The translations under genes and the position numbers were made by a program. A stretch of DNA of 23,356 nt from a virus: positions 1 through 23,356 of the IMG/VR virus record IMGVR_UViG_3300037488_001080, one strand, 5' to 3'. The number at the start of each line of letters is the position of its first letter. The stretch's first letter is position 1. Below are positions 4,876 to 23,356 of the stretch, one piece after another. The notes under the pieces were generated by a model that was given only the letters and a program-made list of their open reading frames with translations, had not been told where the DNA came from and ran no database searches.

Positions 4876-6021
4876 ATGGGAATAAAACATTTAATTCAGG
4901 AAAATCCTAATATGGATTTAAATTTGGTCCGTTTAATATCTAAACTTGACCCAAGCAAAACTAATAAACTAACTCCATTTATGGTAAAAGTTTTTAAAAA
5001 AAGAATGGATGAATTTGAAAAAGAAGTCTCTCAAGAGCACGGCATTTATTCAAGATATGAATATGTTAATAGTAAGATGAGTGATGCAAGTGGTTTTGAA
5101 AAATTAATATTAACTTGGGTTATAGATCAATTTAGGGTGGAAAATATTGAAATCTTAAAAGAATTTAATGAGGTTTTGGATAAAGGTTTGGTAGATCAAA
5201 ATGACATATCTAAATACGAAAATTTTGAAGAAATTACAAATCAATTGTCGGTCGCTAAAACAAGAGATTTATTAAAGAAATCTAGAAAAGAAATCTCTGT
5301 TGTCTATGAAGATGATGAAATTATGATGCTTAAACCATTATCTTTTGAGGCATCTTTGAAATATGGTGCTGGAACAAAATGGTGTACAGCAATGAAAAAT
5401 GAACCTGAATATTTTTATAGATACTCTAAAAATGGTATTTTGATCTATCTTATTAATAAAGAAACCGGTAGAAAATTTGGGTGTCATTCGGAAAGATTTG
5501 ATAATAATAGAGTTCAAATCTTTAATGAGATTGATCAGGTTATTGATTCCTTCCACATGGGTTTACCATATGAAAAATTAACTATCTTAATGGATTTAAT
5601 GGATTCAGTAAAACATGGTGTTAATTCAGATTTATTTAGTGAAGAGGAAAAAAGTAAGTATGGGTTAAGAGTGAATAAATATCCGGTAGATGAAATATCA
5701 GATGTGGTAAATGAAATAATGGATATGCCAAATGAAGAAATACCAGTGAATGAAGAATTACCAAGATTAATGCCAAGATTGAACCGATTAATCCCAATGC
5801 CGGATAGAGAAATGAGAATAATGGAAGACCCAATGGTGGAAGATCAAGGACCGATAGGAATTGAATACAATATGCCTGTACCTGATAGAATGTTAATGAG
5901 AGAGATTCAAAAAGAAATTGATTCCATTATGGTTCTTGATCGTGCGGGAGCTTTCGCTCATCTTGAAAATGAAGAAGGTGACACATTACCAGGATTAGAT
6001 TACGAAGATAAACAAGGATAA
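4876..6021 (+). CDS. Large phage protein with YGAxTKWCTA core (paralog of 14569-15465)
   Basis: A 381-aa protein of a family I cannot name. A helical N-terminal region (1-140) precedes the conserved core. The core reads VVYEDDEIMMLKPLSFEAS (142-160), then LKYGAGTKWCTA (161-172), then FYRYSKNGILIYLINK (180-195). The same pattern recurs in the gene at 14569, so this is a true domain; C170, W169, Y163 and K168 are invariant between the two. The tail (about 255-381) is low-complexity, rich in Pro, Met and Glu, with repeated short blocks such as PRLMPRLNRL, and looks disordered. The gene has its own leader after the RNA-ligase terminator. The tight KWCT motif suggests a catalytic or ligand-binding cysteine, but no function is known to me. 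Confidence 0.8.
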   Translation: MGIKHLIQENPNMDLNLVRLISKLDPSKTNKLTPFMVKVFKKRMDEFEKEVSQEHGIYSRYEYVNSKMSDASGFEKLILTWVIDQFRVENIEILKEFNEVLDKGLVDQNDISKYENFEEITNQLSVAKTRDLLKKSRKEISVVYEDDEIMMLKPLSFEASLKYGAGTKWCTAMKNEPEYFYRYSKNGILIYLINKETGRKFGCHSERFDNNRVQIFNEIDQVIDSFHMGLPYEKLTILMDLMDSVKHGVNSDLFSEEEKSKYGLRVNKYPVDEISDVVNEIMDMPNEEIPVNEELPRLMPRLNRLIPMPDREMRIMEDPMVEDQGPIGIEYNMPVPDRMLMREIQKEIDSIMVLDRAGAFAHLENEEGDTLPGLDYEDKQG

Positions 6022-6631: not shown

Positions 6632-8488
6632 ATGGGAAAAATTATTGGAATTGACTTAGGTACAACAAACTCTTGTGTAGCCGTTATGGAAGGGAATGAA
6701 CCGGTAGTTATAACAAATAACGAAGGTAAACGAACAACACCATCTGTTATCGGATTCATTAAAGATGGAGAAAGAAAGATTGGAGATCCGGCTAAACGAC
6801 AAGCGGTAACCAATCCTGAAAAAACCGTACATTCAATTAAACGATTTATGGGAACAAGTTTTAACGAATCTAAGGGTGAGGTAAAGAAAGTTCCTTATAA
6901 AGTTGTAAAGGGAGATGGTGGATCACCAAGAGTGGACATTGATAAACGACAGTATTCTCCACAAGAACTCTCGGCTATGGTTTTACAAAAAATGAAACAA
7001 ACTGCTGAGGATTATTTAGGTGAGACAGTTACTGAAGCGGTTATTACCGTACCGGCATATTTTAATGACGCTCAACGACAAGCGACTAAAGAGGCGGGTG
7101 AGATTGCGGGATTGGAAGTTAAACGTATTATCAACGAACCAACGGCAGCGGCATTGGCATATGGGTTAGATAAGATGTCTAAAGATATGGTAGTGGTTGT
7201 ATTTGACTGTGGTGGTGGTACACATGACGTTTCTATCCTTGAATTAGGTGATGGAGTATTTGAGGTATTATCTACCGATGGAGATACTCACTTAGGTGGT
7301 GATGACTTTGATCAGGTTATTATTGAATGGTTGGCAAATGAGTTCAAAGATGAGAATGGAATTGATGCTACCAAAGATCCAATGGCGTTACAACGTTTAC
7401 GAGAAGCGGCAGAAAAGGCAAAAGTTGAATTATCTTCAACCTCATCAACGGAAATTAATTTACCGTATTTGATGCCGGTAGATGGGATGCCAAAACACTT
7501 GGTTAGAACTTTATCAAAATCTAAATTTGAACAACTGGCAGATTCATTAATCAAACGAACTATTGAACCTTGTAAGACAGCATTGAAAAATGCTAAGATG
7601 GATGTGTCTGATGTTGATGAAATTATCTTAGTTGGAGGTACAACAAGAATTCCGGCGATCCAAGAAGCGGTTAAACAATTCTTTGGTAAGGAACCATCCA
7701 AAGGAGTTAACCCTGATGAGGTAGTTGCTTTAGGCGCGGCGATCCAAGGTGGTGTACTTGCTGGTGATGTTAAAGATGTCTTATTATTAGATGTGACACC
7801 ATTATCTTTAGGTATTGAAACTATGGGTGGGGTTATGACTAAATTGATTGATGCTAACACCACGATCCCAACTAAAAAATCTCAGGTGTTCTCAACGGCA
7901 GTAGATAATCAACCAACAGTTGAGATCCACGTACTTCAGGGAGAACGAGCAATGGCAAAAGATAATAAAACCATTGGTAAGTTCAATTTAGATGGTGTTC
8001 CACCAGCGATGAGAGGTGTTCCACAAATTGAGGTTACGTTTGATATTGATGCGAATGGTATTATTAATGTTTCCGCAATGGATAAAGGAACAAACAAACA
8101 ACAAACAATTCGTATTGAAGCGTCCTCAGGTTTATCAAAAGAAGAAATTGAGAAAATGAAACAAGAAGCTGAGTTAAATGCCGAACAGGATAAAAAACTC
8201 AGAGAAGATGCTGAAGTTCTAAACAGGGCTGATGGTACAATCTTCCAAACTGAGAAGTCAATCAAAGATTTGGAAGATAAGTTAACTGAAGAACAAAAGA
8301 GTGAACTTGATGGATTACTTGGAACGTTAAAAGAATCTTATGCAAAAAAAGACATTGAGAAGATTAATCAAGATATTGAAAATCTTAATAGTCAGTTCCA
8401 CCATATTAGTCAATCATTGTACGAACAAACTACAACTGAAGAAGGTAATGATGCTCCGTCTGATGTTGAATTTGAAGAAGTACTTTAA
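6632..8488 (+). CDS. dnaK: Chaperone DnaK (Hsp70), Bacteroidota type
   Basis: A full-length 618-aa Hsp70. The ATPase domain (1 to about 370) starts [16 protein letters not shown] and has [17 protein letters not shown] (140-156), [12 protein letters not shown] and an intact [10 protein letters not shown]. The linker [15 protein letters not shown] joins a complete substrate-binding domain ([27 protein letters not shown]) and a helical lid ending SDVEFEEVL. Sequence stretches such as [23 protein letters not shown] and [15 protein letters not shown] match what I recall of Bacteroidota DnaK, pointing to acquisition from a host lineage. In the phosphate-2 loop, the usual DLGGGTFD reads DCGGGTHD (192-199): C193 and H198 replace conserved residues, but T197 is kept. 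No DnaJ or GrpE gene is nearby, so host co-chaperones would be needed. It folds or refolds client proteins in the cytoplasm using ATP; it may serve virion assembly. Confidence 0.97.
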
Positions 8489-9271: not shown

Positions 9272-9985
9272 ATGGAGTTAAACAGATATCTAACAATAGT
9301 TATTCCCTGTAAAAATGAGAAAGATATAATCCTTAAAACTTTGGATTTATTAAACTATCAACAAGACATTAATGATGTTAAAGTAATAATTTGTGATGCG
9401 TCGGATGATGAAATTACTAGACCTGAACTTGAAAATAGAGTGGGTTTACAGAATGATATATTTGATTTACAGGTCATTAATGGTGGATTACCTGGGGTTG
9501 CCAGAAATATGGGATTTAAATATGTTAAAACACCTTATGTTTTATTCATGGATGCGGATGTATTCCTTCTTGACCCGAAAACAATTAAAAGATCATTTTT
9601 GAAAGCTCAACAAAAAGAACTTGATTTGGTTACCACTAAGTTCAGGAGTGATAATGGTAAATACAATTACATTTATAAAACATTTGATATACTACAAATG
9701 ATATCAAAATGGTCAACACCATTTTGTTTGGGTGGGTTTATGTTAGTTAAATCTAAAACTTTTAAAAAGTTAGGTGGGTTTGATGAAGAAATAAAAGTTG
9801 CGGAAGATTATCAGTTCTCAAAACAAATTAAACCAAGAAAATTCGGAAGAATAAATAATGTGGTTTTTACACCACCAAGAAGGTTTGAAAACAAAGGGTT
9901 GATCTATATGACAAAAATATTTTTAGGGTCATTCTTTAATCACAATAACAAATCTTATTTCACTAAAGATAAAAATTACTGGTAA
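9272..9985 (+). CDS. Family 2 glycosyltransferase
   Basis: A 237-aa GT-A fold enzyme. It opens LTIVIPCKNEKDII (7-20), the nucleotide-sugar binding strand. CDASDDE follows (41-47), then NGGLPGVARNMGFKYVKTPY (70-89) and the metal-binding DxD as MDADVF (93-98). An acceptor-side AEDYQFSKQ motif comes later. The protein ends soon after, with no membrane anchor, and is at the short end for the family. The sugar donor and acceptor cannot be read from sequence. It overlaps the next gene by one base (TAATG), so the two are translationally coupled. The pair lies between two copies of the same terminator. The upstream element TATTTATT (9258-9265) may drive it. In a phage, a role in modifying host or virion glycans is the natural inference. 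Confidence 0.88.
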   Translation: MELNRYLTIVIPCKNEKDIILKTLDLLNYQQDINDVKVIICDASDDEITRPELENRVGLQNDIFDLQVINGGLPGVARNMGFKYVKTPYVLFMDADVFLLDPKTIKRSFLKAQQKELDLVTTKFRSDNGKYNYIYKTFDILQMISKWSTPFCLGGFMLVKSKTFKKLGGFDEEIKVAEDYQFSKQIKPRKFGRINNVVFTPPRRFENKGLIYMTKIFLGSFFNHNNKSYFTKDKNYW

Positions 9986-10698
9986 TGAAAAAATGGAAAA
10001 CAGTGATCATGAGTGATCTACATTTAGGGGCTCGTCATTCACAAACAGAAAAAATATTAAAGTTTTTTGAAGAAAATGAAATGGAAACATTAATATTAAA
10101 TGGGGATATAATTGATGGATGGGCAATCAAAAGTGGGGGTAAATGGAGTAACGACTGTACAAAGATTATAAGAAAGATTATTAAAATATCTGAAGGAGAT
10201 ACTAAGGTAGTTTATGTTAGAGGTAATCATGATGACTTCTTAAAAGATTTTATACCCTTCAAATTAAATAATATTGAAATTATTAGGATGTATAATCATG
10301 TTGGTGTTGACGGTAGAAACTACTATTGTTTTCATGGTGATGTCTTGGATTTTGTGATAATGAAAGCGAGATGGTTAGCGGTTATTGGTGGATGGTCTTA
10401 TGATTTTGTTATCAAGATGAATACAATTTACAATAAAATAAGAAAGATGTTTAACCTCCAATACCATTCGTTGGCAAATGACATAAAACAATCTGTCAAA
10501 GGTGCAATTAATTTCGTGTCTGATTTTGAAACAGGAGCGAAAGGTCTAACCAAAGAAAAAGGATTTGACGTTGCGGTTTGTGGTCATATCCACCAACCAA
10601 AGTTAGAAATTGATTATATGAACTCAGGGGATTTTTGTGAAAATTCAACGTGTCTTGTTGAAGATAGGAAAGGTAAATGGAAAATATTAAGTGTATAA
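9985..10698 (+). CDS. LpxH-like metallophosphoesterase (UDP-2,3-diacylglucosamine diphosphatase family)
   Basis: A 237-aa calcineurin-like phosphoesterase with all metal motifs in order: SDLHLG (D11, H13), NGDIIDGW (D41), RGNHDDF (N81, H82), FHGDVLDF (H117) and CGHIHQPK (H201, H203). The HGD-x-x-D and GHIHxP arrangement, with a helical insert at about 125-180, is that of LpxH and related proteins. LpxH removes UMP from UDP-2,3-diacylglucosamine in lipid A synthesis. Many LpxH-like proteins in Bacteroidota have other or unknown substrates, so the exact reaction is not assured. It is coupled by TAATG to the glycosyltransferase upstream, suggesting that the two act on the same lipid- or nucleotide-linked sugar. 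A terminator follows. It is unrelated in subfamily to the edge-cut phosphoesterase at the left of the window. Confidence 0.85.
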   Translation: MKKWKTVIMSDLHLGARHSQTEKILKFFEENEMETLILNGDIIDGWAIKSGGKWSNDCTKIIRKIIKISEGDTKVVYVRGNHDDFLKDFIPFKLNNIEIIRMYNHVGVDGRNYYCFHGDVLDFVIMKARWLAVIGGWSYDFVIKMNTIYNKIRKMFNLQYHSLANDIKQSVKGAINFVSDFETGAKGLTKEKGFDVAVCGHIHQPKLEIDYMNSGDFCENSTCLVEDRKGKWKILSV

Positions 10699-13933: not shown

Positions 13934-14172
13934 AAAAGTTAATACTAATTACTTTAGTTGGGATGGTATTGTTTTCTTGTAATAGAAAAGAATACAAATA
14001 TGAAATCCACGGGAAAGTTTATGTCCCAACATCTGGTGTGAATCCAATGCATGATGCAATATGGTATACCGACACCATTAATTTTGATGGTGATACCATT
14101 TATTATTTTAATAGTAATGGGTCAGAGGTGAGAATTAAACCTCCATATATCTTAAAAGATAACTCAAAATGA
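13930..14172 (+). CDS. Small lipoprotein, 80 aa
   Basis: The N-terminus MKKLILITLVGMVLFSCNRKE is a textbook lipoprotein signal: two lysines, a hydrophobic core and the lipobox LFSC with C17 as the lipidation site. The mature part is short, polar and beta-prone (YEIHGKVYVPTSGVNP ... DGDTIYYFNSNG). It would be anchored in the inner or outer membrane facing the periplasm or cell surface. Phage-encoded lipoproteins of this size are known in superinfection exclusion and receptor blocking, which makes that a possible role, not a demonstrated one. ATGA overlaps occur at both ends (13930 and 14169), placing it inside a coupled operon behind the promoter at 13647. Confidence 0.75.
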   Translation: MKKLILITLVGMVLFSCNRKEYKYEIHGKVYVPTSGVNPMHDAIWYTDTINFDGDTIYYFNSNGSEVRIKPPYILKDNSK

Positions 14173-14582
14173 AAATAGGTATAACCTGTTCCTGTTTTGA
14201 TTTATTTCACGCGGGTCACGTAAAAATGTTGGAGGAAGCAAAAACACAGTGTGATTATTTAATAATTGCTTTACAGACAGACCCAACAATTGATAGACCT
14301 GAAAAGAATAAACCGGTACAATCGGTTGTTGAAAGATACATCCAACTGAAAGGATGTAAGTTTGTTGATGAAATTATCCCATACGAAACAGAAAAAGATT
14401 TGGAGGATATTTTTAAAACATTAAAATTAGATGTAAGGATTATAGGTGAGGATTATAAAGGAAAAGATTTCACCGCAAAACAAATATGTTTAGATAGGAG
14501 TATTGTGTTATACTACAATGAAAGAAAACACAATTTCTCAAGTACAGAACTTAAAAAAAGAATAAACAATGGCAAAAATTGA
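14169..14582 (+). CDS. Cytidylyltransferase-like protein (TagD/HldE-C type)
   Basis: A 137-aa nucleotidyltransferase of the HxGH family. It opens KIGITCSCFDLFHAGHVKML, with H14-x-x-H17 as the nucleotide-binding signature. RYIQLKGCKFVDEIIPY (about 56-72) follows, and NFSSTELKKRI near the end corresponds to the C-terminal S-T-T box. Its size and motifs match glycerol-3-phosphate cytidylyltransferase and related enzymes. These join CTP (or another NTP) to a phosphorylated polyol or sugar, releasing pyrophosphate. The product would feed glycan or phospholipid-type modification, in keeping with the glycosyltransferases further right, although the exact substrate cannot be told. It is coupled to the lipoprotein gene by ATGA and overlaps the next gene by 14 nt. 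Confidence 0.82.
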   Translation: MKIGITCSCFDLFHAGHVKMLEEAKTQCDYLIIALQTDPTIDRPEKNKPVQSVVERYIQLKGCKFVDEIIPYETEKDLEDIFKTLKLDVRIIGEDYKGKDFTAKQICLDRSIVLYYNERKHNFSSTELKKRINNGKN

Positions 14583-15465
14583 TGAACTAAGAAAAAAATA
14601 CCCAAACGTTGTAATGTCTGTCGCTGATAGATTTTTTGAAGGCGATAAAACACCAACCAAAAAATATCTTGAATTTATGTTTAAGATGTGGTCAACAAGA
14701 GGCAAGAGACCAGTTGAAGGAGTTTCTTCTCAACAATATGTTAAAATAGTTAATGAGTTTGATCAGTTGTTACCATATATTCAAAATAAAGACATATATA
14801 GTGGTGAATATAAAACTATGATGCAGTTATTTAGGGTGGTTGAAAATGCTAAAACATTAAAAGAGGAAAATGAGTTTGTTCGTGAAGATCATGTTGATGT
14901 TTTAATTGATAATGAAGATTATCTTTTAATTAGCCCTTTAACTTTAAAGGGATCCATAAAATATGGTGCGAATACTAAATGGTGTACTGCCAGTAAATCA
15001 AGTTCTTATCACTTTACAGGTTACACTAGAGATGGTTATTTGTTTTATTTGATCTCAAAAAAAGAAAGAGGTAAAAATCATGATAAGGTTGCGTTTTATT
15101 CTCGTGGTGGTAAAAATGAACACTTGACCACGTCTTACGCAATTTATAATCAATTTGATACTGAGATTAACGAGCAAAAATTTATTTTGAATGGTTGGAC
15201 TATGTTTGATCTATTTGAAATAATGACTAAAATAAGAGTTTATGCATATGAAAAGTATGTAATCCAAAAGGCTAAAAGTGATGTTGAAAAAACTGTAAAT
15301 ATTCTGAAGTCAGTTAATTTAGATGAATTTTTACAACAAGTTAATTTGTTGGAGAAATACGGAGAAAGTGGAAAAATAGAAGGAAAAGATGAATTGGAAA
15401 AAGTAATTCAAACTTTAAGTAAAAAAACAGAAGATTTATTTGGCAAATCTAAAATTAATGAGTAG
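14569..15465 (+). CDS. Phage protein with YGAxTKWCTA core (paralog of 4876-6021)
   Basis: A 298-aa protein sharing a core with the gene at 4876. VLIDNEDYLLISPLTLKGS (111-129) leads into IKYGANTKWCTA (130-141), then YTRDGYLFYLISKK (152-165). C139 corresponds to C170 of the paralog. After the core, this copy has DKVAFYSRGG and SYAIYNQFDTEI, suggesting a longer beta region, then a helical C-terminus with heptad character. It lacks the Pro/Met/Glu-rich tail of the other copy. The N-terminal region (1-100) is helical and divergent. The function is unknown to me. It is translated from within the cytidylyltransferase gene end (14-nt overlap). Its stop codon forms part of the next promoter-like element. 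Confidence 0.78.
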   Translation: MAKIDELRKKYPNVVMSVADRFFEGDKTPTKKYLEFMFKMWSTRGKRPVEGVSSQQYVKIVNEFDQLLPYIQNKDIYSGEYKTMMQLFRVVENAKTLKEENEFVREDHVDVLIDNEDYLLISPLTLKGSIKYGANTKWCTASKSSSYHFTGYTRDGYLFYLISKKERGKNHDKVAFYSRGGKNEHLTTSYAIYNQFDTEINEQKFILNGWTMFDLFEIMTKIRVYAYEKYVIQKAKSDVEKTVNILKSVNLDEFLQQVNLLEKYGESGKIEGKDELEKVIQTLSKKTEDLFGKSKINE

Positions 15466-15508: not shown

Positions 15509-15730
15509 ATGTTTAAAACAGAAAAGTTAGGACTATGGGGAGTCATAATACTAACAACGATCTATCTCTATTTAATGAATTTGTATTTTGAATACATCAT
15601 CAACAGAGAAGTAGCAAGTGAAATCCAAATTGTTGTAAGTTTAGTAGCCTTGGCTTACACAATTTTTCAAGTTAAATTAATAGTAAAAAAGGCAGTTAGT
15701 TTATTTAAAAAAGAAGAAAAAAATGATTAG
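15509..15730 (+). CDS. Two-span membrane protein, 73 aa
   Basis: Two hydrophobic segments are clear: LWGVIILTTIYLYLMNLYF (9-27) and IQIVVSLVALAYTIFQVKLI (39-58). They are joined by a short loop (EYIINREVASE). The C-terminus is strongly basic and acidic (KKAVSLFKKEEKND) and probably cytoplasmic. It overlaps the SPFH gene by 8 nt and follows a good promoter, so the two are made together. A small membrane partner or membrane anchor for the SPFH complex is a fair inference. No known family is recognised, and holins of this size also have two spans, so that alternative remains. Confidence 0.72.
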   Translation: MFKTEKLGLWGVIILTTIYLYLMNLYFEYIINREVASEIQIVVSLVALAYTIFQVKLIVKKAVSLFKKEEKND

Positions 15731-16625
15731 TATTGTATTATTTATTGTGTTTATTGCTATTGGAGCAATTATGTTTTTATCAGGTCGTGCAAATGACGAT
15801 GACCGTAGAACTATAATGGGAATTGCCGTCGCGGTGATTGGAGTTTTGGTTACAATATTCCAACCATATTCAATTGAAAAAATTGATTCAGGTCACAAAG
15901 GATTAAAAATTAATTTGATTGGTAATCAACGAGGAGTATCAAGTTATCAATATAAGACAGGTTGGGTTTTTTATAATAGTTGGACAGAACAAGTTTTAGA
16001 GTTCCCAACATACCAACAACATATTGAATACGAAGATCAAGGTGTGATCCTAAAAGGTGGGTTCTCTGCGACTATTAAACCAACGTTCAATTACTCATTA
16101 CGTGAAGATGCGATTGGAGATATGTTTGTTAACTTAAGAAAAGATATCAAAGAGATTGAACAAGGTTGGTTGAAAAATGCCATTATCGGAGCGGTTAATG
16201 ATGTTGCAAATACATGGGAAGTAGATAGTATCTTTAATCACCGACAAGCATTTGAGGCGGCTATTGTAACCGAATGTAATGTACGTTTATCTAAGTGGTT
16301 TAATGTGTCTCAATTACGAACTAATATTATCCCGCCTGATGCATTACAAGAATCTATTATTGCGAAAACAAAGGCAATCCAACAAGCGGAAGCATCAGAA
16401 CAACAAGCGATCGCTGCGATCTCTGAAGGTAGACGTAAGGTGGCTGTGGCACGAGCTGACTCGGCAGAAACTATCATCAATGCACAAGCGGCGGCATTAG
16501 CAATCAAAATTAAACAAAACCAATTGTCTCCATTGTATATTGAATATATTAAGTGGAATGCGTGGGATGGTAAATTACCTACTACAGTGACTGGTAATTC
16601 AGGAACTTTATTAAACATTAAGTAA
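15723..16625 (+). CDS. SPFH/band-7 (prohibitin-like) membrane protein
   Basis: A 300-aa protein. Residues 2-20 and about 30-46 are membrane segments. The SPFH domain follows (about 50-210): YSIEKIDSGHKGLKINLIG, WVFYNSWTEQVLEFPTYQQ, then LRKDIKEIEQGWLKNAIIG. The alanine- and glutamine-rich coiled coil is at about 218-265 (AKTKAIQQAEASEQQAIAA). A short C-terminal domain ends TVTGNSGTLLNIK, similar to bacterial prohibitin-like proteins. Such proteins form large ring or cage oligomers at the membrane and often control membrane proteases or membrane order. In a phage they might protect or reshape the host membrane during infection. It is coupled to the two-span protein upstream. A strong terminator follows. 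Length and layout are complete. Confidence 0.88.
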   Translation: MISIVLFIVFIAIGAIMFLSGRANDDDRRTIMGIAVAVIGVLVTIFQPYSIEKIDSGHKGLKINLIGNQRGVSSYQYKTGWVFYNSWTEQVLEFPTYQQHIEYEDQGVILKGGFSATIKPTFNYSLREDAIGDMFVNLRKDIKEIEQGWLKNAIIGAVNDVANTWEVDSIFNHRQAFEAAIVTECNVRLSKWFNVSQLRTNIIPPDALQESIIAKTKAIQQAEASEQQAIAAISEGRRKVAVARADSAETIINAQAAALAIKIKQNQLSPLYIEYIKWNAWDGKLPTTVTGNSGTLLNIK

Positions 16626-17381: not shown

Positions 17382-18008
17382 ATGGAAAATTACAAAATAC
17401 TTGAAAATGGTTTAATAAAACAAAAATCTATCGTTAATAAAATCCAAACGTATGATACAAAATACGTGGATGAAAGATATAATCAATACGGTGAAAAAGG
17501 ACCTCAAATGGCTGGTATCCGACTTGGATATTTAGTTGGGACTTTAGGTTATTGGCCACAATCCATACTAGATATTGGATATGGTAATGGTGATTTTTTA
17601 AAGGTCTGTAAAGGTGTTATTGAGTCATATGGTAATGATGTTTCAGGATATCCTGTACCTGAAGGTGTTACATACACTGATAATATATTTGATAAACATT
17701 ACGAGGTGATCTCATTCTTTGATGTATTGGAACATTTTGAGGAAATTGATTTTGTAAAAGATTTGGATTGTAATTACGTCTACATTAGTTTACCTTGGTG
17801 TCACAACTTTAGTGAAGAATGGTTTATGAATTGGAAACATAGAAGACCTGACGAGCATTTGTGGCATTTTAATGAAAAGTCAATTGAGAAATTCTTCAAT
17901 GAAATGGGTTATGATATGGTTGATTATTCAAATGTTGAAGATTTAATAAGAGTTTCTGGTGAAGAATATCCTAACATTTTAACTTGTATCTTTAAGAAAA
18001 GAAAATAA
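17382..18008 (+). CDS. Class I SAM-dependent methyltransferase
   Basis: A 208-aa Rossmann-type methyltransferase. SILDIGYGNGDFLKVC (61-76) is motif I, the SAM-binding glycine loop. VISFFDVLEHFEEI (109-122) is the usual acidic/aromatic segment of Methyltransf_23-like enzymes. VYISLPW (133-139) is strand 5. HRRPDEHLWHFNEKSIEKFF (153-172) is the C-terminal signature seen in sugar- and polyketide-cluster methyltransferases. The target is unknown; a sugar or lipid hydroxyl is likely from the neighbours. It ends as TAATG with the next gene (18008) and opens the glycan cluster. A nucleic-acid base methyltransferase is unlikely, as there is no NPPY or PC motif. Confidence 0.85.
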   Translation: MENYKILENGLIKQKSIVNKIQTYDTKYVDERYNQYGEKGPQMAGIRLGYLVGTLGYWPQSILDIGYGNGDFLKVCKGVIESYGNDVSGYPVPEGVTYTDNIFDKHYEVISFFDVLEHFEEIDFVKDLDCNYVYISLPWCHNFSEEWFMNWKHRRPDEHLWHFNEKSIEKFFNEMGYDMVDYSNVEDLIRVSGEEYPNILTCIFKKRK

Positions 18009-18937
18009 TGAGATTTGGGTTTAAAATATCAGGTTGTTTTGGAGATGTGTTATACTCAACTCCGGTTTTAAAATATTTAAGTAAATGTCATGGTGATAAA
18101 TTAGATATTGAAACTAATTATCCGGACGTATTTAAAAATAACCCATATGCTGGAATAATTTATAATCCTGAGGAAGGTCAAATAATGCCTCACGATCAAA
18201 TTTTTTATGATTGTAATGGTCATAATTTTGGTGATATACAAAAACAAATAAGAAAAATACATTTGACCGATTATTGGTCAACACATTTAGGTTTCATATT
18301 ATCTCCTGAAGAAAAAACTTTGGAATTTTATCCGGATCCTTTGGATGTTGAAATTCCTAAAGACAAATACATTGTTATTAATCCTTCTAAAACTTGGGAA
18401 TGTAGAACTTGGTCAAAAGAAAATTGGGAAAGATTAACTGAAATGATATTAGAGTTAGGAATTAAAGTTGTGGTAACTGGACAGGATATAACTTATGGTG
18501 ATAATGATAAAAAGGGATCTATAGAAGTTTCTAATCCAAATGTAATTAATTTAGTAAATAAATTAAATCTATCCCAACTTTGGCATTTGGTTAATAATAG
18601 TTTATTAACAATAACTATGAACGCTGGATTACTACCTTTCGCGGGCACTACTGACTCAAATATTTTACAATTAGGTGGTGCTATTGATCCATATTATAGA
18701 ACACCATATAGAAATGGTAGTCAGGATTACAAACACAAGTTTGTTGGTGGATCTTGTAAATTATTCTGTCAATCAGATATGAAATATAACACAATGGATG
18801 ATCAAAAAATAACAAGATGGAATGGTTATAGGTCGCCTGGATGTTATGAAAATAAAAAATCATATGAATGTCATGCATCCGTTAATGGAGCGTTTAATGA
18901 GGTATTAGAATTTTATAAAAAAAATATTTATGAATAA
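18008..18937 (+). CDS. GT9-like (heptosyltransferase-family) glycosyltransferase
   Basis: A 309-aa GT-B type protein. It starts GFKISGCFGDVLYSTPVLKYL, matching the N-terminal G-x-x-GD-x-x-x-TP-x-x-x-x-L signature of ADP-heptose:LPS heptosyltransferases and their relatives. KYIVINPSKTWECRTWSKEN (about 120-139) matches the start of the second domain. QLWHLVNNSLLTITMNAGLL (190-209) corresponds to the sugar-nucleotide region, where the canonical S-N-D-S-G-x-x-H is changed. Unusual extra Cys (GGSCKLFCQS, SPGCYENKKSYECH) may bind a metal or form a structural cluster, as in the phage and environmental members with a C-terminal extension. The donor and acceptor cannot be assigned. It begins by TAATG coupling and overlaps the next gene by 8 nt. 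Confidence 0.8.
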   Translation: MRFGFKISGCFGDVLYSTPVLKYLSKCHGDKLDIETNYPDVFKNNPYAGIIYNPEEGQIMPHDQIFYDCNGHNFGDIQKQIRKIHLTDYWSTHLGFILSPEEKTLEFYPDPLDVEIPKDKYIVINPSKTWECRTWSKENWERLTEMILELGIKVVVTGQDITYGDNDKKGSIEVSNPNVINLVNKLNLSQLWHLVNNSLLTITMNAGLLPFAGTTDSNILQLGGAIDPYYRTPYRNGSQDYKHKFVGGSCKLFCQSDMKYNTMDDQKITRWNGYRSPGCYENKKSYECHASVNGAFNEVLEFYKKNIYE

Positions 18938-19892
18938 TGAAGATCTAATATACGTTACGGCCAATTGCCCAACTGAAGAGCAAGAAAAAAAACTTGAAGA
19001 ATGTATAAATTCATTAGAAAAAATTGGATATGATATCGCGTTAGTATCACATACGCATATACCGTTAAACATTCAAAAAAAATGTAAGTATTATATATAT
19101 GACCACTTCAATGACATATCTGAAGATGAAAATTTATTAAGTGACATAAATTTTTATATACCCAAAGGTATAATAGTGTCAAAGTATTTTCAAAAATATT
19201 TTTATGGTTTTGCTGTTTTTAGAATGATAAATTTAGCGTGTAATTTGGCAATAAATTTTGGTTATAAAAAATTACACTATATTGAATATGATTGTGTGGT
19301 TAATAATGGTTCATTCATTAAAGAAAATAGCAAATTGTTAGAAACTTATGATTCTATTTTATACACAACTAATGGTAATAAAAATGATGGGTTAATAGGT
19401 GGTATTCACTCATGTTTAACTAATAAGATACCAGAGTTATTTAAAAAATATGACAGAGAAAATATTGAAAATTTATTAAAAGAAAATCAAAATAATTGCG
19501 TTGAAGATATAACAAAATTATCTTTTTTAAATTCGGGTAATGTTTTATTTAAAAATGGTAATGAATTAACGGAGGATATTATAACGATAGGATATAAATT
19601 TAAAAATAGGAATGTACATTATACGTTATATTATGACAATGAAAGTGAAAAAATAAATATTATTTATAATAATGTTTCGCAATCCGATCAAAAAATAATG
19701 TTAATAGTTAATAATAATAAAGTTATTAATTTTATATCTAAAATTAATTTTTGGAATATAGAAATGGTGGGTAACATAAATGAGATACGGAATGTTAAGG
19801 TTTTTATTGATGATAGGATATCTTATGAAAAGAATTTCAATGATGAAAATATACAAACTTTTAAAAATAACTCTTATATTATAAAAAAATAA
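18930..19892 (+). CDS. GT-A-type glycosyltransferase-like protein with C-terminal beta module
   Basis: A 320-aa protein. It opens LIYVTANCPTEEQEKKLEECINSLEKIGYDIALVSH (6-41). The motif YGFAVFRMINLACNLAINFGYKKLHYIEYDC (92-122) follows, where Y-D-C (120-122) sits where a GT-A DxD would be, reduced to a single Asp. LHYIEYDCVV, LIGGIHS and SGNVLFKNG are further matches to environmental phage glycosyltransferases. The last ~90 residues are a separate beta-rich module that resembles the end of the GT8-like protein at 22036. A loss of the second Asp may mean metal-independent or inactive chemistry. It overlaps the GT9-like gene by 8 nt and precedes the DegT-like gene by 2 nt. The family assignment is moderate. 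Confidence 0.68.
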   Translation: MNNEDLIYVTANCPTEEQEKKLEECINSLEKIGYDIALVSHTHIPLNIQKKCKYYIYDHFNDISEDENLLSDINFYIPKGIIVSKYFQKYFYGFAVFRMINLACNLAINFGYKKLHYIEYDCVVNNGSFIKENSKLLETYDSILYTTNGNKNDGLIGGIHSCLTNKIPELFKKYDRENIENLLKENQNNCVEDITKLSFLNSGNVLFKNGNELTEDIITIGYKFKNRNVHYTLYYDNESEKINIIYNNVSQSDQKIMLIVNNNKVINFISKINFWNIEMVGNINEIRNVKVFIDDRISYEKNFNDENIQTFKNNSYIIKK

Positions 19893-19894
19893 TT

Positions 19895-20542
19895 ATGTCA
19901 ATAAAAAACGTTCACGATATCACCAGGGAATTTGAGGAAGAGTTATCAAAGTATACTGGGGCACCATATGTAATTGCATTAGATAATATGAGTAACGCAA
20001 TATTTTTAGCGTTGTACTATGAAAAAAATATAAAAAAAACTTTAATTTCAGATAAAATAGATTGTCCGTCAAAAACATATCCTTCAGTTCCTTGTGAAAT
20101 TATTCATGCGGGATTAAAGGTTAATTTTACACCTGTTGAGGGTGAAACAATTAAAGGTGCGTACCAACTGTCACCAAGTAATGTTTGGGATTCTGCTTTA
20201 AGATTTACTGCGGATATGTATATTCCAAAATCATATATGTGTCTTTCATTTACTGGTCCATATAAAACATTAAAATTAAGCAAAGGTGGTGCAATTTTAA
20301 CTGATGATCATAAAGCAATGTTATGGTTTAAACGAGCAAGATTTAGTGGAAGAAGAGAATGTTCTTATCATGATGATAATTTTGATATGTTGGGGTGGAA
20401 TTTTTATATGATGCCGGAACTTTCTGCTAGAGGATTATTAATGATGTCACAATTTTATGATTTAAAAGGTAATAAACGTCATATGGATGATTTGGAATTA
20501 CCTTATCCGGATTTATCAAAATTTAAAATTTATACTGAATAA
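19895..20542 (+). CDS. Minimal DegT/DnrJ/EryC1-like PLP protein
   Basis: A 215-aa protein with the N-terminal and catalytic part of a DegT-type sugar aminotransferase: FEEELSKYTGAPYVIALDNMSNAI (13-36), VWDSALRFTADM (98-109; D99 fits the PLP-ring Asp) and CLSFTGPYKTLKLSKGGAILTDD (116-138), where K124 is the probable PLP-binding lysine. A full DegT is about 360-400 aa; this lacks the C-terminal domain that normally completes the dimer and substrate site, and the text ends cleanly in a stop without frameshift signs. It could still bind PLP, but activity is uncertain; it may be a regulator or a sugar-binding remnant. Sugar-amino transfer would fit the acyltransferase next door. Confidence 0.72.
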   Translation: MSIKNVHDITREFEEELSKYTGAPYVIALDNMSNAIFLALYYEKNIKKTLISDKIDCPSKTYPSVPCEIIHAGLKVNFTPVEGETIKGAYQLSPSNVWDSALRFTADMYIPKSYMCLSFTGPYKTLKLSKGGAILTDDHKAMLWFKRARFSGRRECSYHDDNFDMLGWNFYMMPELSARGLLMMSQFYDLKGNKRHMDDLELPYPDLSKFKIYTE

Positions 20543-20543
20543 T

Positions 20544-21086
20544 ATGTTTTACACAAAAGAAGAATTAAATGAAATGGGATTTAAATCCATTGGTGAAAAT
20601 GTTCTAATATCAGACAAGGCATCAATTTATGGTGTTAAAAATATTGAAGTTGGATCAAATGTAAGAATTGACGATTTTTGTATTATAAGTGCTGGTGAAG
20701 GAGGAATAAAAATTGGTAATTATGTTCACATAGCGTGTTATGCTCACTTGATTGGTTCGGGTCAAATTATCGTTGAAGATCATGCACAAATTTCCGGTAA
20801 AGTTTCAATCTATTCATCGTCTGATGATTTTTCGGGTGACTATTTAGTTGGACCTACAGTACCTAAGGATTTTACAAATGTTAAAAGTTTGACAGTACAT
20901 CTTAAAAAATATGTTATATTGGGATGTAATGTTGTGGTATTACCTGGTGTTACAATTGGGGAAGGAACTGCGATTGGAGCTTTAAGTTTAGTTTCAAAAA
21001 GTTTACCTGAATATGGTATATATGGAGGTAATCCGTTAAGATTAATAAAAGAAAGAACAAAAGGAATGCAAAAATATGAGATATAA
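20544..21086 (+). CDS. Hexapeptide-repeat (LbH) acyltransferase
   Basis: A 180-aa left-handed beta-helix acyltransferase. I chose ATG 20544 (MFYTKEELNEMGFKSIGENV...); the frame is open upstream to 20487 but only in sequence overlapping the DegT-like gene. Hexapeptide-type turns repeat through residues 20-150 (IYGVKNIEVGSNVRIDD, IKIGNYVHIACYAHLIG, VILGCNVVVLPGVTIGEG). It ends IYGGNPLRLIKERTKGM, the normal close of this fold. The probable catalytic histidine is in HIACYAHL. It transfers acetyl or acyl from CoA to a sugar hydroxyl or amine; LPS and capsule O-acetyltransferases have the same shape. It starts 1 nt after the DegT-like gene and overlaps the ketoacyl synthase gene by 11 nt, so these three are tightly coupled. 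Confidence 0.85.
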   Translation: MFYTKEELNEMGFKSIGENVLISDKASIYGVKNIEVGSNVRIDDFCIISAGEGGIKIGNYVHIACYAHLIGSGQIIVEDHAQISGKVSIYSSSDDFSGDYLVGPTVPKDFTNVKSLTVHLKKYVILGCNVVVLPGVTIGEGTAIGALSLVSKSLPEYGIYGGNPLRLIKERTKGMQKYEI

Positions 21087-22020
21087 TAATGTGGGTATTT
21101 TGGGTACAGGTTCATACCTACCTCCAAAAATTATAACTAATCAAAAAATAGAAAAAACTATAGATACAACACATGAATGGATTAATAACAAGTTAGGTAT
21201 TAATGAACGTAGAGTAGTTGAGGGTGAATTACCATCGGACATTGGATATAAATCAGCTTTAAATGCGTTGGAATCCGCAAATCTAACAATTAATGATATA
21301 GATTTAATAATTGTTGCAACATCAAGTCCTGAACAGATATCTCCATCAACTGCGTGTGTAATTCACAATAAATTTAATATTGAAAAAAATATTCCGGCCT
21401 TTGATATTAATGCAGTTTGTTCCGGATTTGTTTATGCTGTTAATTTGGTTGCTCCTCTTATTAGTTTTGGTGTGTATAAAAATGTTTTAATTATTGCGAC
21501 TGAGGCATATTCTAAAGTTACTAATTGGAATGATAAACATTGTGTATTTTTTGGTGATGGTGCTGGTGCGGTAATCATAGGATCCTCAAGTGACGGGTGG
21601 ATTTCATGTGAGAATAGCGCTAATGGTAAAGATACTGGTATGACAGGATTTAATTTACCAATAGGAGGGCCATTTACTATGAAAGGCAAAGAAGTTTGGG
21701 ATCAAGCAATTAAAGTTATACCTGAATCGGTTAAAAATATCTTAAAAATTTCAAATGTTGATATTAATGATGTTAAAATGGTGGTCCCTCATCAACCAAG
21801 CATTAATATACTTAAAATAATTGCGGAAGATCTGAAGATCCCAATGTCAAAGGTTAAGACCGTAATGGATAAATATGCAAATATTGCGGGAGCTTCAGTT
21901 CCAATTGCATTAGATGATGCGGTTAAGAATAATGAAATAAATAAAGATGATATAATCATCTTAACCGCTATTGGTTCTGGTTGGACATGGGGGTCAACAA
22001 TATTAAAATGGGTAAAATAA
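21076..22020 (+). CDS. FabH-like beta-ketoacyl-ACP synthase III
   Basis: A 314-aa thiolase-fold enzyme with the complete KAS III triad: C115 in FDINAVCSGFVYA, H239 in VVPHQPS and N269 in DKYANIAGASVPIAL. It also keeps FFGDGAGAVIIGSS (158-171), GTGSYLPPKIITNQ (10-23) and the final GSGWTWGSTILKW. KAS III normally condenses an acyl-CoA with malonyl-ACP to start fatty acid or polyketide chains. In glycan clusters, relatives build short acyl groups that are attached to amino-sugars. The setting between an LbH acyltransferase and a glycosyltransferase favours the latter, although no acyl carrier protein is seen. It is very unusual for a phage. It overlaps the acyltransferase by 11 nt. Confidence 0.92.
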   Translation: MRYNNVGILGTGSYLPPKIITNQKIEKTIDTTHEWINNKLGINERRVVEGELPSDIGYKSALNALESANLTINDIDLIIVATSSPEQISPSTACVIHNKFNIEKNIPAFDINAVCSGFVYAVNLVAPLISFGVYKNVLIIATEAYSKVTNWNDKHCVFFGDGAGAVIIGSSSDGWISCENSANGKDTGMTGFNLPIGGPFTMKGKEVWDQAIKVIPESVKNILKISNVDINDVKMVVPHQPSINILKIIAEDLKIPMSKVKTVMDKYANIAGASVPIALDDAVKNNEINKDDIIILTAIGSGWTWGSTILKWVK

Positions 22021-22035
22021 TTAAAAAATAAAATT

Positions 22036-23181
22036 ATGAATAATAAAATATCAATTGTACTATTTTGTACAAAAAATTATCTTAATAATGCTTTGAGTTT
22101 AATAAAATCTTTGAATTTATTTCACGATAATCTTGAATTTTACTTATATACTCTAAATTTTAATTATGAATCTGACATTTATAATGTTAAAACGGTTTAC
22201 ATTTATGAAAGTAGGATTGAGGATAATATGTCATTTCATGGGAATAAGAATGACGTAACAAATAAAAATATGTTTAAATCGGTATTCTTTAAAAGTCAAG
22301 TTATTTTAGATTCTATTGATACTTTAAAATTAAATGAAGCGATATATGTTGATTCCGACATAATGCCAACCGGTGACATATCTGAACTATTTAGTTTTTT
22401 TAATCAGGTTGAAGATTATCCGATAATCCAACAAGGGATATTTGAATATCAAATTAACTATGGTAGGGGAAATCCATTTCATAATGGTGGATTTGATGAA
22501 ACTAATATTTTGGAATATCCATTAATGTTTAAACATCATATAGACATTAAATTTAGATCTCATTATTCCGTTGCATCGGTTATGGTGTATAATAAAAATT
22601 GTAGACAATTTATTGCTGAAAATAATTGGATGAATAATTTGGCTTTTAATATGCATATTGATGATATTAAATATTATTATCCTTTTAGTGATGAAACAAC
22701 AATAAATGTTTTATTATGGAAATACGGACACAAGAATAGATTACCACTGATGCAAATGAATATTGATGATATTGGTAACGTAAAAGAGTTATATGAATCA
22801 AATTACGAAAACGAAAAAGAGATTACTTCATATGTGAGAGTACCAAGTAAAAGTGAAAGAAAACACAAATTATTTTTTCATGGTGCAAAAGGTGAGTTAT
22901 CAAACGAGATATATGAGTTACAATGTAAAATGTTTAATACCAGAATAGATTATAATGAAAATAAATATTATATTTTATCTAACATTAATTTTGACAGAGA
23001 ATTAAATATTAATTTTTATGATGGTGATGAGTTAATTTATCAATCAACAAACCATATAAGAAAGGGATTTGAATATTGGTTTAGTCCTAGTAGAAAATTT
23101 GTTGATGTTGAAAATTTAAAGGTTAAAATACTTGATGACGGTAAATTAATATTCAAAGATGGTGAATTTAAAAGAGTTTAA
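22036..23181 (+). CDS. GT8-like glycosyltransferase with C-terminal beta module
   Basis: A 381-aa protein. It opens KISIVLFCTKNYLNNALSLIKSL (4-26), with a GT-A start. AIYVDSDIMPTGDISELFSFF (102-122) carries the DxD (D106-x-D108), as in GT8/glycogenin-like enzymes. HYSVASVMVYNKNCRQFI and DETTINVLLWKYG are further matches, followed by LFFHGAKG (an HG-x-K-like metal/phosphate motif). The last ~80 residues are a beta-rich module resembling the end of the protein at 18930. It uses a nucleotide sugar and an unknown acceptor. It begins 15 nt after the ketoacyl synthase and overlaps the edge-cut gene by 23 nt, so it belongs to the cluster. Confidence 0.8.
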   Translation: MNNKISIVLFCTKNYLNNALSLIKSLNLFHDNLEFYLYTLNFNYESDIYNVKTVYIYESRIEDNMSFHGNKNDVTNKNMFKSVFFKSQVILDSIDTLKLNEAIYVDSDIMPTGDISELFSFFNQVEDYPIIQQGIFEYQINYGRGNPFHNGGFDETNILEYPLMFKHHIDIKFRSHYSVASVMVYNKNCRQFIAENNWMNNLAFNMHIDDIKYYYPFSDETTINVLLWKYGHKNRLPLMQMNIDDIGNVKELYESNYENEKEITSYVRVPSKSERKHKLFFHGAKGELSNEIYELQCKMFNTRIDYNENKYYILSNINFDRELNINFYDGDELIYQSTNHIRKGFEYWFSPSRKFVDVENLKVKILDDGKLIFKDGEFKRV

Positions 23182-23356
23182 AATAATAAGATATAATTAC
23201 GTTTTATCTAATGAGGAATTAACAATTCAGTTATGGGATAAAATGAATTTTGAGGAAACTAGATGGGCGGTTAAACTAACTTTGGAAGGTGTAAATGATT
23301 CTTCTTCAGGTGATCAATATCCTGCTTGGGATATGTTTTTTCTTGAAACAAAATTG
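23159..23356 (+). CDS. Unknown protein, 3' end outside window
   Basis: An open frame starting at ATG 23159, inside the end of the GT8-like gene and in a different frame, runs without stop to the right edge. The visible 66 residues begin MVNLKEFKIIRYNYVLSNEEL and contain TIQLWDKMNFEETRWAVKL, then SSGDQYPAWDMFFLETKL. The strand-rich, aromatic character suggests a beta-sandwich, possibly a carbohydrate-binding type, but too little is present to assign a family. The 23-nt overlap is in line with the coupling seen elsewhere in the cluster; a later start cannot be excluded. Confidence 0.55.
   Translation, partial: MVNLKEFKIIRYNYVLSNEELTIQLWDKMNFEETRWAVKLTLEGVNDSSSGDQYPAWDMFFLETKL

Follow-up and report, generated by a model that had tools for sequence, protein, structure and literature searches.

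Among the closest described counterparts of the genes analysed here is the viosamine island of Pseudomonas syringae, vioA/vioB/vioR/vioS/acp, which leads to N-(3-hydroxybutyryl)viosamine on flagellin; vioS encodes a beta-ketoacyl synthase III (KAS III), vioR a reductase, vioB an acyltransferase and vioA an aminotransferase, and deletion of vioR causes loss of the modified sugar (PMC3927599). NphT7 retains the catalytic triad of KAS III without KAS III activity, presumably because an ACP-binding arginine is missing, and makes acetoacetyl-CoA (PMC5432608). Among viruses, the N-acetylviosamine pathway of Mimivirus is a virus-encoded 4-amino-sugar route for virion glycans, and in the portions of that account drawn on here the substituent is a simple N-acetyl group, KAS III is not mentioned and the host is eukaryotic (PMC9614988). 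Fatty-acid genes have also been reported: a rumen virome study mentions fabH on viral contigs in passing as a fatty-acid gene (PMC5704599), and Rhodobacteraceae prophages carry fabG-acpP-fabF without fabH (PMC8224337). Our partial coverage of the literature on phage FabH turned up no account of a phage lineage of KAS III within a sugar-acylation module. Such a lineage in such a module is what appears to be new in the locus reported here; phage glycan islands and viosamine-type systems are known.

Our preferred reading, which we hold with moderate confidence, is that the locus is part of a phage acyl-amino-sugar module in which a KAS III makes a short acyl group, probably in a CoA-dependent manner. 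The module shares with the viosamine island a KAS III, a sugar N-acyltransferase and a sugar aminotransferase, as well as the reductase in most viral relatives. It differs in being phage-borne, in that no ACP was found and that the reductase is missing in the subclade of our phage, in the size of the aminotransferase (about 200 aa in the phages, 372 aa in the island) and in the sugar enzymes, which are of the dTDP-sugar type in the island, whereas GDP-mannose enzymes lie near the modules of the phage relatives.

The KAS III gene and its phage surroundings

The window, that is the whole stretch of DNA analysed, corresponds to a single IMG/VR virus record (23,356 bases, no further contig), and genes past position 23356 lie outside the record. 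Its source is a large environmental phage. The phage-like setting first proposed from the letters alone is borne out by the IMG/VR record itself, by a phage-type RNA ligase with a PHA02142 OB-fold domain and by a full-length DnaK (6632-8488) that is 61-65% identical to the DnaKs of huge metagenomic phages (LR745206, LR756501-3). The window also encodes a 2OG-Fe(II) oxygenase, and two of its proteins (592-1830 and 18008-18937) had no relatives in the phage collection. Elsewhere in the window we observed two envelope-type enzymes, an RfaE/HldE-like nucleotidyltransferase (14169-14582) and an LpxH-like metallophosphoesterase (9985-10698); a protein (15723-16625) that matches phrog_200 ('lipoprotein') and looks SPFH/prohibitin-like by eye; and two proteins (4876-6021 and 14569-15465) that both match PHROG 17056 (unknown), apparently a family duplicated inside 10 kb. 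A run of glycan genes extends from about 17.4 kb to the window end. Its members, and the residues of the KAS III discussed below, are as follows:

17382..18008, + strand, SAM methyltransferase (Methyltransf_23)
18008..18937, + strand, glycosyltransferase family 9 (heptosyltransferase-like)
18930..19892, + strand, protein of unknown family, without Pfam or PHROG match
19895..20542, + strand, short DegT-type sugar aminotransferase, 215 aa, PLP-site Asp99 and Lys124 kept
20544..21086, + strand, hexapeptide (left-handed beta-helix) sugar acyltransferase, WbbJ/WcaF-like, 180 aa
21076..22020, + strand, KAS III, 314 aa, intact, with an ATG start and no internal stops
21418..21420, + strand, codon of catalytic Cys115, aligned to E. 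coli FabH C112
21700..21831, + strand, span with the four ACP-patch positions D209 (K214), N244 (R249), E251 (K256) and D252 (K257), from the alignment to E. coli FabH (in brackets)
21790..21792, + strand, codon of catalytic His239, aligned to E. coli FabH H244
21880..21882, + strand, codon of catalytic Asn269, aligned to E. coli FabH N274
22036..23181, + strand, glycosyltransferase family 8-like, a weak match below cut-off

Comparison of the acyltransferase with its relatives indicates that its start is most likely 20544 rather than 20487. A single base separates the DegT gene from it, and its stop overlaps the start of the KAS III gene by 11 bases; this spacing suggests that the three genes are co-expressed. 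Within 19895-22020 the KAS III thus stands beside a sugar acyltransferase and an aminotransferase, as in a VioS/VioR/VioB-type module.

The sequence-only reading had described a complete KAS III with Cys115, His239, Asn269 and the GDGAGA motif in place, and on both points it was right. The protein matches NF006829 (322 bits, cut-off 249) and TIGR00747 fabH (304.5 bits, cut-off 292.1) over its full length, as well as the Pfam families ACP_syn_III (2.1e-22) and ACP_syn_III_C (2.1e-27). Its AF2 model (pLDDT 93.9) has A. aeolicus FabH 2ebd as best match among solved structures (VIA-align Z 48.1, rmsd 1.2 A over 305 residues). Alignment to E. coli FabH confirms the triad and the motif, the latter at residues 160-165, so that fold (the thiolase fold of solved FabH), triad and curated full-length match agree in assigning the protein to the KAS III family. 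With housekeeping FabH (E. coli, A. aeolicus) it has the fold, the Cys-His-Asn triad and the CoA-face tryptophan in common. It had no match in PHROG at E <= 0.001, and the matches listed in a BFVD fold search (E <= 0.001) were type III polyketide synthases and KS3/FabB only, which is not proof of absence.

The aminotransferase belongs to a group of short DegT proteins of about 200 aa, compared with about 370 for normal DegT enzymes. Asp99 and Lys124, presumably the PLP-site residues of the family, are invariant among the short members, and the AF2 model (pLDDT 92.5) can be aligned with the DegT sugar aminotransferases WlaRG (Z 19.5) and GDP-perosamine synthase (Z 18.6). At this small size the protein is a candidate aminotransferase. 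The cultured Flavobacterium phage immuto (NC_055915) encodes a short DegT (gp172) that is 71% identical to that of the window and is directly followed by a PglD/NeuD-like acyltransferase (gp171); this identity points to a Flavobacterium-like host for our phage. The 595-kb metagenomic phage LR756511 has the same pair of short DegT (L171 7992-8603) and acyltransferase. These pairs would link the short DegT with N-acylation even where KAS III plays no part: immuto resembles our locus in the gene pair, and several KAS III loci share glycosyltransferase families with its glycan island, but tblastn found no KAS III in NC_055915 and its acyltransferase is of another hexapeptide subfamily.

ACP-docking surface and acyl pocket

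Pattern scans of IMG/VR yielded 51 further viral KAS III loci, with identities to the window of up to 73%. The resulting viral set of 52 loci consists mostly of fragments, with records reaching 340 kb at most. The Cys-His-Asn triad is invariant in the alignment of its 37 de-replicated KAS IIIs, that of the window included. The surface facing the carrier is different. In E. coli FabH, K214, R249, K256 and K257 form what we take to be the basic patch on which ACP docks, and these positions are mostly K or R across proteobacterial housekeeping FabH. The window protein has D, N, E and D there, a net charge of -3 against +4 in E. coli, and so lacks the basic docking patch of housekeeping, ACP-dependent FabH. 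Most viral KAS IIIs carry a patch charge of 0 to -3, and a few are basic (L034 +4, L046 +3, L047 +2). On the CoA face the tryptophan is invariant in the viral set, the R36 position is mostly K and the R151 position R, Q or K.

The missing arginine (R249 to N244) recalls NphT7, likewise a KAS III homologue with the triad kept. The window protein differs from NphT7 in that its alignment shows no AGGSR CoA motif, in its glycan rather than mevalonate context, and in that its activity is a prediction. One viral KAS III (L037) has an insertion starting AGGSY near residues 190-215, close to this NphT7 motif. Eight of eight genomes of marine Group II archaea compared (L061, L063, L064, L067, L071, L085, L098, L110) encode a KAS III without most of the basic patch, and PF00550 was not detected in them; we regard these archaea as a cellular counterpart for a CoA-dependent KAS III.

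The observation, made from the sequence alone, that neither an ACP (PF00550) nor another Fab enzyme is encoded here holds for the window, which is a fragment. PF00550 was also absent from all 24 viral records searched, with 11 of 14 control genomes positive, and a home-made profile for diverged ACPs, run at full sensitivity on the viral loci, gave a best viral E of 0.3 compared with 1e-33 for the control. Because the basic patch is lost and ACP genes were not found in viral records, malonyl-CoA is favoured over malonyl-ACP as the predicted extender.

The same module could nonetheless run on a host ACP, with the KAS III using malonyl-ACP through another surface and the acyltransferase receiving 3-hydroxyacyl-ACP in an LpxA-like manner. 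Host bacteria do contain ACP, the viosamine island includes an acp of its own (PMC3927599), and in two Cloacimonadota loci that are sisters to the viral ones an ACP gene lies at a distance of 4-7 kb, close to a different SDR. It is thus conceivable that the KAS III works with an ACP, either a dedicated one or that of the host, that docks on another face. We consider this unlikely, if deserving of attention, since all four docking positions of the window protein are lost or reversed, 24 viral records yielded no ACP, and marine archaea with a similar loss have no detectable ACP. Of the two roles offered by the sequence-only reading, provision of a short acyl group for the adjacent acyltransferase is well supported by the synteny kept among viral and cellular relatives and by the viosamine precedent, whereas borrowing of the host ACP is disfavoured by the altered patch, which is not proof against it.

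Relative to E. coli FabH the acyl pocket is changed at three positions (F87 to S, L189 to F, L205 to F), and the primer may thus not be acetyl. Bacteroidota are rich in branched acyl-CoAs, and a product differing from that of our preferred reading in the acyl group alone, namely a branched or longer 3-oxoacyl for sugar acylation, would fit the Ser or Ala found at the F87 position across the whole viral clade and the PhyH-type oxygenases at 28 loci, which could modify the acyl chain or sugar. The two phenylalanines, however, may refill the pocket, and we rate such a product as rather improbable.

Viral relatives and gene neighbourhood

A single-sequence scan of genome contigs found no relatives, whereas an alignment-based scan did yield them. 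Hits in the phage collection were excluded as evidence, since none reached 60% identity and several lay in short records without annotation. Scored with a profile built on the viral set, 48 of its members reached 437-541 bits and the top cellular sequence 392 bits, a gap that is partly by construction, as the profile was made from viral sequences; a tree gives the fairer comparison. In a careful IQ-TREE analysis of 69 rows (37 de-replicated viral, 6 near cellular and 26 other cellular sequences), a branch with bootstrap 100 and SH-aLRT 97 sets the 37 viral KAS IIIs apart from all the others, and a wider quick tree agrees; sampling was pattern-biased on both the viral and cellular sides, with Bacteroidota not targeted, and four loci with long branches or cellular-level scores (L048-L051) are excluded from the claim. 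The six cellular sequences adjoining the clade come from Deltaproteobacteria/Myxococcota, Solibacter, Fermentibacterota and Cloacimonadota, and several of the sister genes sit within glycan-type clusters; the other 26, E. coli FabH among them, lie apart. The sequence-only reading had named a place inside housekeeping FabH, with bacterial flanking genes, as the outcome that would speak against it; the window KAS III instead falls in the viral clade, away from E. coli and proteobacterial FabH, with glycan genes as neighbours. On sequence and tree position, it is not a stray housekeeping FabH, from which it further differs in the lost or reversed patch, in F87 to S and in its glycan rather than fab-operon context.

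The neighbourhood is conserved along with the gene. The immediate neighbour of KAS III is an acyltransferase or a FabG-like SDR in 46 of the 52 viral loci, or in 36 of 40 once redundant loci are removed; DegT lies within six genes of it in 39 of 52, and a GMD/epimerase gene does so in 31; GMD was not found in the window. Clustering of all ORFs across the viral loci gave cassette families of hexapeptide acyltransferase (38), short DegT (35), GDP-mannose-dehydratase-like or other epimerases (35) and a sub-threshold WbuC-like cupin (29). The FabG-like SDR is present in 33 of 52 loci, its best NCBIfam matches being 3-oxoacyl-ACP reductase and acetoacetyl-CoA reductase, both below equivalog cut-offs; it is absent from the window (to its end at 23356) and from the records of L005, L006, L007 and L026, and the subclade of the window lacks it. 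A PhyH-type 2OG dioxygenase stands beside the KAS III module in 28 viral loci (for example L024 9479-10381), and hydroxylation of either the acyl chain or the sugar is a possible role for it. The cellular sisters have similar arrangements: DegT-acyltransferase-KAS III-SDR in L057, acyltransferase-KAS III-SDR in L144, L145 and L162 (the last a longer stretch of the L145 genome), and KAS III-SDR amid glycan-type genes in L054. The simplest reading would be that phages acquired a cellular sugar-acylation module rather than a fatty-acid gene.

That the phage supplies an extra FabH to boost fatty-acid initiation in the host is how fabH on rumen viral contigs was interpreted (PMC5704599), and the TIGR00747 match agrees with it. 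We nevertheless reject it as very improbable given the tree position away from housekeeping FabH, the loss of the ACP patch and the glycan genes that neighbour KAS III in nearly all viral loci. Recent host capture or mis-binned bacterial DNA without phage function, a case that L048-L051 (scoring no higher than cellular sequences) may represent, is barely credible and rejected for the window clade in view of its long independent branch with 100/97 support, the terminase (TerL, PF03237) in 7 of 24 viral records examined, the dN/dS (NG86) of 0.05-0.15 between close viral relatives, which indicates a gene maintained under purifying selection, and the short DegT shared with immuto.

The proposed module and its meaning

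The relatives, the gene neighbours and the altered docking surface suggest that KAS III has been repurposed across a phage family to make a short acyl group decorating an amino sugar, and a role of the enzyme in a sugar-acylation module is well supported. From the observed parts, their order and conservation, the phylogeny and the residue changes we infer the carrier, acyl group, sugar and final location. The substrates joined by KAS III would be a short acyl-CoA, with acetyl-CoA the probable one, and a malonyl thioester, with malonyl-CoA likelier than malonyl-ACP; the product would be acetoacetyl-CoA or another short 3-oxoacyl thioester closely related to it. In most relatives the FabG/PhaB-like reductase would turn the 3-oxoacyl into a 3-hydroxyacyl group; in the window subclade a host reductase may act, or the 3-oxoacyl group may be used directly. 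DegT would make a nucleotide-activated amino sugar, probably perosamine-like and from GDP-4-keto-6-deoxymannose, a substrate proposed because relatives commonly carry a gene resembling GDP-mannose dehydratase. The hexapeptide acyltransferase would then move the acyl group onto the amino group of this activated sugar, and glycosyltransferases of the same gene run would attach the sugar either to the virion or to the envelope of the host. More tentatively, we propose in full that a dedicated KAS III lineage exists in phages, independent of ACP, acetoacetyl-CoA synthase-like and with the charge of its docking surface reversed, which together with a miniature DegT may serve to make an amino sugar with an N-linked 3-oxo- or 3-hydroxyacyl group, displayed by virions or by a remodelled host surface.

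Viral fabH calls should not be read as fatty-acid auxiliary genes, as was done in a rumen virome study (PMC5704599). Although phages are known to have glycan islands, their routes to unusual sugar substituents have been little studied. The KAS III lineage, which many phages keep and which appears to be free of ACP and coupled with an acyltransferase and a short aminotransferase, offers a testable rule for separating KAS IIIs that use CoA from those that use ACP. It also leads one to expect a definite chemical group on the virus or the infected cell, an acyl group that would be detectable by mass spectrometry.
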